From Halosegnis rubeus (GTDB lineage: Archaea > Halobacteriota > Halobacteria > Halobacteriales > Haloarculaceae): a stretch of DNA of 64,000 nucleotides. Below the pieces are notes generated by a model. The model worked only from the letters and a program-made list of their open reading frames with translations. It made no database searches and had not been told where the DNA came from. Of the stretch, positions 24,590-27,824 are shown in pieces (the stretch's first letter is position 1; each line of letters opens with the position of its first letter). The position numbers and the translations under genes are program-made. The stretch spans positions 1 to 64,000 of the forward strand of contig NZ_QJOW01000008.1 in assembly GCF_009184545.1 (NCBI RefSeq). Reading direction: 5' to 3'.

Positions 24590-25717
24590 ATGCGAACAGT
24601 GGACGCCGCAGGGTTGGCCATCGGCGACGACCAGCCGACCCGCATCATGGGGGTGCTCAACGTCTCGAAGGAGTCGCCGTACGACCCGAGCGTGTTCGAC
24701 GAGCCGGACGAGGCCGCCGAGTACGTCGACGAACGGCTCATCGACGAGGGGGCCGACATCGTCGACGTGGGACTCGAATCCGCGAACAAGAAGTTCGAGG
24801 TGCTCGACGTCGAGGGCGAACTCGAACGGCTCGACACCGCTGTCGAGACGATGCACTCCGTCTCCGGTGATGCCGTTTTCTCCATCGAGACGCGCTATCA
24901 CGAGGTCGCGGAGGCCGCCCTCGATGCCGGTTTCGACATGGTCAACGACATCTGTGGCTTCGCCGACCCCGAGATGCCCGCCGTGTGTCGCGACTACGAC
25001 GTGGCCGTCGCGAAGATGGCCTCGCCGCCGGACCTCGAACGCCCCGGCGCAATCGAGGATGTGGACGACATCTACGACGGGCTCGCACAGAACGGCCTGA
25101 CGGACAAGACCATCGTCGACCCGGCCTTCGGCGGCTGGTCCGAGGCGAAGACGGTCGAAGACGACCGCGAGACGTTCGACCGGCTCCGAGAGTTCCGCGG
25201 CTACGGGCTCCCGATTCTCGTCTCCATCAACCGGAAGAACTTCCTCCGCTCTCTCGCCGGCCGCGACACCGACGAAGCGCTACCCGTCTCGCTGGCGGCG
25301 ACGGCGATGGCTATCGAACGTGGCGCACACGTCGTCCGGACTCACGACGTGGCCGAGACGGTCGACGCCGCCCGCATCGGTGACCGGTTCACACCGGACC
25401 GCGTCCGTGACACCGCCGCAGGCGTTGAGGAACTCGACGTGCAAACTGCCGGCGACGCGAGCCGACACCTCGACCGTCTCGGTGCCGACGCCGACCCCGA
25501 GACGACCGTGACGCGCGTCTTGGAGTTCACTGACCTCAGCGGGATGGAGCAAGACGCGCTCGCGTCGCTCGCGACGACCGTTCCCGGCGTCGAAATCGCG
25601 AGCGGCGAGGACGGTACGCTCGTCTTCGGGACTGTCGCCGCACTCCGGGCGGTGAGCCGTGAGAGCGACGGCGAGTTGAGCGCTCGCTTCGGTGCTGCAC
25701 TCGGGGGATTCGAGTGA
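24590..25717 (+). CDS. folP: Dihydropteroate synthase-type protein
   Basis: A 375-residue protein whose first 270 residues form a pterin-binding TIM barrel: RIMGVLNVSKESPYDP, EGADIVDVGLES and MVNDICGFADPEM correspond to the DHPS signatures. A C-terminal extension (about 275-375) of unknown fold is typical of haloarchaeal forms. It should join p-aminobenzoate and dihydropterin in folate-type cofactor synthesis. A TATA-like box about 25 bases upstream suggests a leaderless transcript. MptE follows. Confidence 0.9.
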   Translation: MRTVDAAGLAIGDDQPTRIMGVLNVSKESPYDPSVFDEPDEAAEYVDERLIDEGADIVDVGLESANKKFEVLDVEGELERLDTAVETMHSVSGDAVFSIETRYHEVAEAALDAGFDMVNDICGFADPEMPAVCRDYDVAVAKMASPPDLERPGAIEDVDDIYDGLAQNGLTDKTIVDPAFGGWSEAKTVEDDRETFDRLREFRGYGLPILVSINRKNFLRSLAGRDTDEALPVSLAATAMAIERGAHVVRTHDVAETVDAARIGDRFTPDRVRDTAAGVEELDVQTAGDASRHLDRLGADADPETTVTRVLEFTDLSGMEQDALASLATTVPGVEIASGEDGTLVFGTVAALRAVSRESDGELSARFGAALGGFE

Positions 25718-25745
25718 CTCTCACCAGCAAATCGCCAAGAGAAAG

Positions 25746-25844
25746 CTTATACCGAACCCGAGAGTATCGCCGGATGGAAGCCCATGGGTCACGCTGGGTA
25801 GGGGTACCTTGTGACCACTGGGCCAGCGGTCCGTTCTTTGCGTG
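25746..25844 (+). ncRNA. Structured leader RNA before mptE
   Basis: A TATA-like CTTATAC at 25746-25752 predicts a transcript from about 25775. The region then folds: GCCCA (25780-25784) pairs with TGGGC (25819-25823); GGTCAC (25787-25792) with GTGACC (25811-25816); and GGTA (25797-25800) with TACC (25805-25808) around a GGGG tetraloop. This gives an extended hairpin of about 44 bases, followed by a loose run to the ATG. Since haloarchaeal genes are mostly leaderless, a structured leader is notable. It could be a riboswitch-like control, a small RNA or a chance fold. Confidence 0.45.
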
Positions 25845-26534
25845 ATGCGCTACGACACGTGGCGACCGGTATACGAGTCGATACTCGAGGGCTTCGGCTA
25901 CGACGCCACCGGTGACGAGCGTGCCCGCGACGAGCTCGCGTTGTTGTGCGAGCCGTTCGACCACCGGAAGCTCGCTCACGTCCGAGATGCGACCGTCGCA
26001 ATCTGTGGTGGTGCCGACTCGCTCGCCGACGAACTCGCCGTCGCACGACGCGCCGACGTGGTCGTCGCCGCCAGCGTCGCCGCCGACACGCTCCGTGAGG
26101 CGCGCGTCGATGTCGACCTCATGGTGACCGACTTAGACAAGAACCCCGACACAGCGCGCCACCTCACACGCGAGGGAGTGCCGGTCGCGGCCCACGCCCA
26201 CGGCGACAACGTCGACCTCGTCAAGCGCGAGGTGCCGGGGTACGACGACGAATTCGTGCTCCCGACGGTCCAGTGTGCACCGACCGGTCCGACGGAGAAC
26301 TTCGGCGGCTTCACCGACGGCGACCGCGCGGCGTTCATCGCCGACGCGTTCGGCGCGGCCGAACTCCGGTTTGCGGGCTGGGACTTCGACGACCCGACCG
26401 TAACCGACGCGAAACGCCACAAGCTCGAGTGGGCTGCGCGACTGCTCTACTGGCTCGAACAGCGGCGCGGCGAGCGGTTCGGCGTGCTCGACGGCCGCCG
26501 TGAGTCGCTGACGCTCCCGCCGGGGTCGTCGTGA
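25845..26534 (+). CDS. mptE: 6-hydroxymethylpterin diphosphokinase MptE-like
   Basis: A 229-residue enzyme of the archaeal MptE/COG1634 type, which activates 6-hydroxymethyl-7,8-dihydropterin with ATP. Motifs: AICGGADSLADEL, VDLMVTDLDKNPDTA, AAHAHGDNVD and QCAPTGPTENFGGFTDGDRA are those of the family. It supplies the substrate of the dihydropteroate synthase just upstream. The ATG at 25845 is chosen; a GTG one codon before is also possible. Confidence 0.9.
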   Translation: MRYDTWRPVYESILEGFGYDATGDERARDELALLCEPFDHRKLAHVRDATVAICGGADSLADELAVARRADVVVAASVAADTLREARVDVDLMVTDLDKNPDTARHLTREGVPVAAHAHGDNVDLVKREVPGYDDEFVLPTVQCAPTGPTENFGGFTDGDRAAFIADAFGAAELRFAGWDFDDPTVTDAKRHKLEWAARLLYWLEQRRGERFGVLDGRRESLTLPPGSS

Positions 26535-26573: not shown

Positions 26574-27824
26574 ATGAACGATAGCCACGACCACTCCGTC
26601 CGGGCTATCGCACTCGCGGTGACGGCCGGCGTCTTCCTCGGTGGCGTCGCTACCGGCGTCGCCTTCCCGACGCTCCCGCTGTTGGATCAGTATCTCGGTA
26701 TCTCAGCCGCGCTGTTGGGATTCATCCTCTCGGCGAACCGCATCGCCCGGCTGGTCGCGAACACCCCGGCCGGCAACGTCATCGACCGCGTCGGCCCGCG
26801 CCGTCCGATGATTGTCGGTCTGTTCGTGCAGGGACTCGCGCCGTTCGGCTACGTGCTCGGTCTCAACGTCCCGCGCGTCGACCTGTTCGTCCTGCCGGCG
26901 GTCGGCGTCGTCTCCTTTCCCGCGCTCGTCTTCATCGGCGCACGGGTTTTCTGGGGGCTCGGCAGTGCGTTCGTCTTCATCGGCGCGTTCGCCATTATCA
27001 CTGGCGTGACCAACCAGTCGAACCGCGGTCGCTGGACGGGGTATATGCGTGCCGGTCAGTCAATGGGATTCCCGACCGGACTCGTGGTCGGAGGCATCGT
27101 CGCCGACGTGTTCGATATCACGACCGCGTTCCTCGCAGCCGGAACCCTCGCGCTCGCTGCCGGCGTGCTCGGATGGTACGTTCTGCCGGACGTACAGCCC
27201 AACCGTACTGACGGGCGCACGCCGCGGCTCCGTGACCTCCCCGAGACGGTGCGTTCGCTGCCGGGCGTCCTCCCGATTGGGCTTGCGAACGCCGGCGTCA
27301 GACTCCTCTTCGGTGGTGTCCTGCTCACGACCGCGGTTCAGTACGCCGACTACCTCGGTCTCACCATCGGCACGCTGACCGCGGCCGGGGTCTCGGGACT
27401 CGTCACCGGACTCGGGGTCGTCGCGAGCGCGGGGGCGACGGTCGTTTCGGGACGCGTCTCCGATACCGTCGACTCGCGCGCGGTCGTGACGCTCCCCGGG
27501 TTTGCCCTGCTCGCTGCCGGCTACGCCCTGCTCGCGCTCTCTGGAAACCTTCCTGGCGTCACGGTCGGTATCGTCCTCGTCGGTGCCGGCACGGGCGCGG
27601 TCGGGCCGGCGCTGCTTGCGACGCTCGGTGATATTGCACCCGGTGACGAACTTGGCCGACTGGCCGGCGTCTACAACGTCTTCGGCGACATTGGACTCTC
27701 TGTCGGGCCGCTGGCTGCACTCCCGATTGCCGAGGCCGTCGGCTTCACGCCGACGTATCTTGCCTGTGCCGGCGTCGCCGTCGCGTGTCTCCTGCTCATG
27801 AACGCGACGCTGCTGAAGTCGTGA
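26574..27824 (+). CDS. MFS transporter
   Basis: A 416-residue 12-helix major facilitator. The loop 2-3 motif RIARLVANTPAGNVIDRVGPRRPM and the helix repeat (N half about 10-190, C half about 215-410) are plain. A short polar linker (about 195-215) separates the halves. Substrate unknown. A TTGTTAAGC element about 25 bases upstream fits a leaderless start. Confidence 0.9.
   Translation: MNDSHDHSVRAIALAVTAGVFLGGVATGVAFPTLPLLDQYLGISAALLGFILSANRIARLVANTPAGNVIDRVGPRRPMIVGLFVQGLAPFGYVLGLNVPRVDLFVLPAVGVVSFPALVFIGARVFWGLGSAFVFIGAFAIITGVTNQSNRGRWTGYMRAGQSMGFPTGLVVGGIVADVFDITTAFLAAGTLALAAGVLGWYVLPDVQPNRTDGRTPRLRDLPETVRSLPGVLPIGLANAGVRLLFGGVLLTTAVQYADYLGLTIGTLTAAGVSGLVTGLGVVASAGATVVSGRVSDTVDSRAVVTLPGFALLAAGYALLALSGNLPGVTVGIVLVGAGTGAVGPALLATLGDIAPGDELGRLAGVYNVFGDIGLSVGPLAALPIAEAVGFTPTYLACAGVAVACLLLMNATLLKS

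Follow-up and report, generated by a model that had tools for sequence, protein, structure and literature searches.

The 127-nt gap between the folP and mptE genes of Halosegnis rubeus contains an RNA hairpin that is real and a member of a conserved RNA family. The element gave no match to a catalogued RNA family, and it looks like a control switch. On balance, it probably represents a new family of 5'-terminal cis-acting RNA leader, controlling mptE through a ligand bound at a near-invariant tip ('mptE leader'). The basis of this reading is the conserved structure, the near-invariant tip and promoter, the linkage to mptE and the joint absence of promoter and RNA. A covarying element kept across an order, in front of one folate gene and with its own promoter, provides a handle on RNA-level control in archaea and is of relevance to the regulation of folate synthesis in haloarchaea. 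According to PMC8241225 and PMC7247131, the number of known cis-acting RNAs in archaea is small. For H. volcanii, PMC4983044 gives 72% of the protein-coding transcripts as leaderless and calls structured leaders not typical.

The window, i.e., the whole analysed stretch of 64,000 nucleotides, carries folP at 24590-25717 and mptE at 25845-26534, both on the plus strand. The folP product, a dihydropteroate synthase, matches TIGR01496 at 171 bits over the cut-off, as well as PF00809. The downstream gene had been called mptE in the first-pass annotation, and this name holds: its product, 6-hydroxymethylpterin diphosphokinase, matches PF01973 (MptE-like) at 45.1 bits over the cut-off, and the dihydropteroate synthase gene lies upstream. 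The start ATG of mptE is kept in relatives. A gene for an MFS transporter (26574-27824, plus strand) begins 40 nt past mptE. At the Haloferax locus L058, an open frame on the opposite strand comes after mptE, so that mptE seems to be the sole target there.

The hairpin is made of three stems on the plus strand, namely P1 (5 bp, 25780-25784/25819-25823), P2 (6 bp, 25787-25792/25811-25816) and P3 (4 bp, 25797-25800/25805-25808), capped by a GGGG loop (25801-25804), exactly as they had been placed in the first-pass annotation. The pairs of P1 and P2 covary; P3 and the GGGG loop go with the near-invariant tip, GGGUAGGGGUAC (25796-25807). The covariance model R3 matches the element at 25775-25832 on the plus strand (64.4 bits, E 1.9e-11). 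The same annotation had taken the interval 25746-25844 as the leader; the hairpin stands, but the interval begins at the TATA box, and its first ~29 nt are promoter.

Folded alone, the hairpin reaches -25.9 kcal/mol in RNAfold (z -2.85), and only 1 of 200 shuffles is equally good. The folding energy of the full 99-nt interval is ordinary (z -0.77; 41 of 200 shuffles equally good); hence, folding energy alone would not settle the hairpin, and covariation does. That this interval folds no better than shuffles is what a chance fold in GC-rich DNA would predict, but such a fold is refuted by the covariation and the order-wide conservation, and we regard it as practically dismissed. RNAfold also gives an extra outer stem (25771-25775/25830-25834), which is absent by eye in two of the four other element-carrying species of the genus (L007 and L008). 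This stem would fall mostly outside the RNA, 5' of the predicted start.

The upstream regions of mptE in relatives hold the same hairpin with differing stem letters and an unchanged tip, GGGUAGGGGUAC. Related sequences were gathered from 100 selected loci. In alignment A3, whose 25 sequences were used to build R3, 96.3% of the cells are standard pairs, against at most 43.3% when the partners are slid, and both sides have changed in 7 of the 11 P1/P2 pairs. A wider alignment fitted to R3, A4, comprises 97 matches in 86 distinct rows: 96.8% of its cells are paired (at most 49.2% in slid versions), both sides have changed in 8 of 15 pairs, and its covariation score was reached by none of 500 shuffles. 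Identical sequences, L053 (a truncated contig) and two opposite-strand palindromic A4 matches were left out, the last two still being included in the 86-row count; without them, 84 distinct rows remain, with 1210 of 1251 cells paired. The covariation check across relatives proposed in the first-pass annotation, thus, finds compensatory changes to be abundant in both alignments rather than lacking.

P3 is short and nearly unvarying, and is therefore uninformative as to covariation. A few genomes have GGGCAGGGGCA or GGGCAGGGGAA as the tip, and P3 is broken there. Diverged tips, mostly of these two types, occur on apparently intact stems in L160, L161, L162, L083, L102 and L106, the tip of L106 being more different than the GGGCAGGGGCA and GGGCAGGGGAA variants. 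These six loci are useful natural tip mutants.

A promoter composed of BRE and TATA box, AAGAGAAAGCTTATACC, is located at 25737-25753 on the plus strand and is near-invariant across loci; its TATA box, CTTATA, occupies 25746-25751. A near-identical box, RGARAAARCTTATRCC, is found 51-56 nt 5' of the tip in 116 of 117 distinct loci and has AA after it at the -10 position; the box of the last locus differs by one base. In nearly all loci, the sequence 21-22 nt past the first A of the box is A/T-rich. In the window, this A/T-rich position is the TA at 25765-25766 (plus strand), corresponding to the -10 (WW) element among the haloarchaeal promoter motifs given in PMC4983044. From the fixed promoter and these motifs (PMC4983044), the UGG that forms the hairpin's 5' foot (25775-25777, plus strand) is expected to be the transcript start, as judged by promoter geometry. 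The predicted leader is ~70 nt long, with a start at about 25775-25777.

A transcript predicted to begin at the hairpin would also be expected of a plain 5' stabilising hairpin, or of an element acting at the DNA level, neither of which involves sensing. 5' hairpins can protect mRNAs. A stabilising stem, however, would need no near-invariant 12-nt tip, and covariation in the manner of RNA pairs would not be expected of a DNA site; we therefore hold this explanation to be quite improbable.

Past the hairpin, the window has a U-rich stretch at 25833-25839 on the plus strand, with a putative role in control. In most groups, an AU/U-rich stretch is present ~12-17 nt past the hairpin foot, regardless of the distance to mptE; for this reason, it seems to be part of the element. 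A tail motif, AGYGAC, comes after it in many loci and is absent in the window's genus. The promoter, tail and spacing counts refer to loci with the standard tip, and the count of second hairpins also took the variant tip; the promoter, tail and second-hairpin counts include class-level loci.

Of the 108 matches in the window's family, 107 lie directly 5' of mptE on the same strand, as seen from the coordinates of R3 and MptE matches, and the nearest MptE match is 11-268 nt away. The order folP-element-mptE was present in all 30 top class-level loci. A conserved, covarying structure 5' of a fixed gene on the same strand, as expected of structured cis-regulatory leaders, is thus what is found here. 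This supports the first-pass reading of a structured element before mptE, whereas the control by pterin or folate level suggested there is a possibility.

Matches to R3 were obtained in 107 of the 146 genomes of the window's family (39 without a match), in 342 of the 391 genomes of the class (49 without a match) and in 65 of the 392 genomes of the phylum. All of these 65 belong to the window's order, and no match outside it was found among the 392. Nearly all genomes with the element have a single copy. This also applies to the window's genome, where the next-best R3 match scores 15.5 bits (E 7.45). The Haloferax-type genus, named from the near-identical element in the Haloferax loci L058 and L063, has one copy in each of the 15 genomes searched, making the element testable in tractable Haloferax.

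Twenty of the genomes without a match, which as such count against the leader, were inspected. In 14 of them, the distance between the folP stop and mptE is -1 to 5 nt; with mptE overlapping or adjoining folP, promoter and RNA are missing together. This joint absence agrees with a role in cis that is linked to mptE. In three genomes (L160-L162), a diverged hairpin is still present at the site, so that the number of genomes without a match includes some diverged copies. Two had no folP in the stretch read, and one had a 90-nt gap and no hairpin.

Three genomes hold a second copy away from both mptE and folP. Each of these copies has a promoter box and an unchanged tip, while the stems are its own. 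The first (L186, G260:C2:629669-629726) is near a DUF7827 gene, the second (L187, G214:C29:835870-835925) is near genes for TBP and a NotI-like endonuclease, and the third (L188, G088:C1:1199861-1199919) adjoins a phage-type integrase. These copies show a unit able to stand alone, and they speak against a plain leader. They are the main evidence for another explanation, a stand-alone sRNA gene of ~70-95 nt between folP and mptE, acting in trans and merged with the mptE leader in short-spaced lineages.

The spacing between element and mptE bears on both explanations. In the closely spaced loci (n = 23), the region 19-45 nt 5' of the mptE start showed no TATA-like box; with no other promoter, the hairpin should belong to the mptE mRNA there. 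In middle-spaced loci (n = 34), TATA-like letters at -31/-32 fall together with the AU-rich stretch. Widely spaced loci (n = 35) have an AT-rich pattern 24-33 nt 5' of the mptE start, which hints at a second, leaderless mptE promoter and, to that extent, at something other than a plain leader. A conserved CGAACAC..GATA motif ~24-33 nt 5' of the mptE start in widely spaced loci, for example, L040, L044, L048 and L081, may be a weak promoter of the leaderless type. The conserved block of 33 Natrialbaceae-type loci stops after the tail, well 5' of mptE, like a discrete RNA gene, which again counts against the leader.

The sharp end of this block, the possible separate mptE promoter and the element's own promoter, with its predicted start at the hairpin foot, are all in agreement with an sRNA gene. 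Conversely, it would be unusual for an independent RNA gene to keep the position and strand seen in 107 of 108 matches; its absence coincides with the folP-mptE junction, and the 23 closely spaced loci have no other promoter. In addition, no antisense target for the tip exceeds the control: its complement occurs at 18 sites in the window's genome versus 14 for the reversed control, and no target stands out, so a guide or antisense role was rejected. Altogether, an sRNA gene is possible, though we doubt it.

Natrialbaceae-type loci (L089, L096, L098, L107, L038 and L044) also have a second small hairpin past the AU-rich stretch; its stem varies and is capped by a GNNR-type tetraloop (CCCAGU-GCGA-ACUGGG, CGAGU-GACA-ACUCG). 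This second hairpin (AGY-NNNR-RCU) is not claimed as a part of the element: at least three pairs form in 35 of 134 loci versus a shuffle mean of 3.8, but it is lineage-bound and absent from the window.

For the mptE leader, which we favor, the following mechanism is proposed. Transcription from the dedicated promoter, near-invariant and located in the folP-mptE gap, would start at the hairpin foot. The transcript would then carry, in this order, the rod-like hairpin P1-P2-P3 with its near-invariant G-rich tip, the AU/U-rich stretch and mptE. The tip and the adjacent internal loops may form a recognition site. Its ligand would, most plausibly, be either a pterin or folate intermediate or a protein reporting on the pathway, possibly MptE itself. 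Binding would set the amount of mptE, either by ending at the U-rich stretch versus reading on or by altered translation of the leadered mRNA. An intrinsic terminator is a hairpin with a T run immediately after it. No T run directly follows the hairpin here; the AU-rich stretch comes only ~12-17 nt past the foot and is not a T5C-type terminator, which counts against the proposed leader.

The nature of the ligand separates two further versions. One is an autoregulatory leader in which MptE, another folate enzyme or an RNA-binding protein binds the tip and represses its own mRNA. The single target gene agrees with this, and so does the near-invariant tip on a plain rod, an arrangement typical of protein-binding sites. 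On the other hand, the tip bears no likeness to 16S rRNA beyond chance (9 of 12 letters, the commonest value among shuffles), and mimicry of 16S rRNA was rejected; to our knowledge, MptE is not an RNA binder. Such a protein-bound leader is rather doubtful. The other version is a metabolite riboswitch of ~57 nt, a single hairpin whose G-rich tip would be the pocket, sensing a pterin or folate intermediate and controlling mptE; the rare free-standing copies on genomic islands would then act as decoys or sensors. One small hairpin is simple for metabolite binding, and no conserved pseudoknot was seen by eye (a loop-tail pseudoknot was sought in the tails, and none is common to all groups). We consider this riboswitch unlikely and entertain it tentatively.

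No similarity with known RNA families was identified. Rfam 15, at gathering cut-offs, gave no match in the window or in 20 related loci, and permissive covariance-model searches gave none in L058 or L038 and, for the window, none that covers the element. This includes the THF riboswitch aptamer fold, without a match at the gathering thresholds (window and 20 related loci) or the permissive ones (window, L058 and L038). H/ACA guide RNAs have a pseudouridylation pocket and an ACA box shortly after the stem. In the mptE element, the internal loops are short and offer no pocket, and past the stem there is no conserved ACA. A small protein was rejected since the match lengths, compared in 100 chosen loci, differ by single bases. 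Searches gave no match in plasmids or phages; in viral contigs, one exact pattern match (13.6 bits), located inside a phage gene, is due to chance, and a virus or plasmid origin was rejected. In the literature (titles and abstracts on haloarchaeal sRNAs, riboswitches, structured RNAs, mptE and folate regulation), no RNA 5' of mptE was found, nor was a study on the regulation of haloarchaeal folate synthesis.

Among known systems, the THF-I and THF-II riboswitches share with the mptE element the leader position before folate-pathway genes. They are, however, bacterial and have other and larger folds, and the mptE element has no Rfam match. Archaeal ribosomal-protein leaders, like the S15 leader of Halobacteria (PMC7247131), are likewise covarying structured leaders obtained from comparative genomics, in the same archaeal class. 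Those leaders precede ribosomal protein genes, whereas this element precedes mptE and lacks 16S likeness beyond chance. The fluoride riboswitch of Thermococcus kodakarensis, called the only experimentally determined archaeal riboswitch in PMC8241225, is another natural archaeal cis-acting RNA; it is associated with other genes, and the mptE element is without an Rfam match. Finally, 145 intergenic sRNAs have been reported for Haloferax volcanii, among them H225.2R, which is 96 nt long and present in 19 other haloarchaeal genomes (PMC3956466). They resemble the mptE element as short intergenic RNAs, and are listed in PMC3956466 by coordinates only. The mptE element may be identical with one of these 145 sRNAs, for example, H225.2R (PMC3956466).
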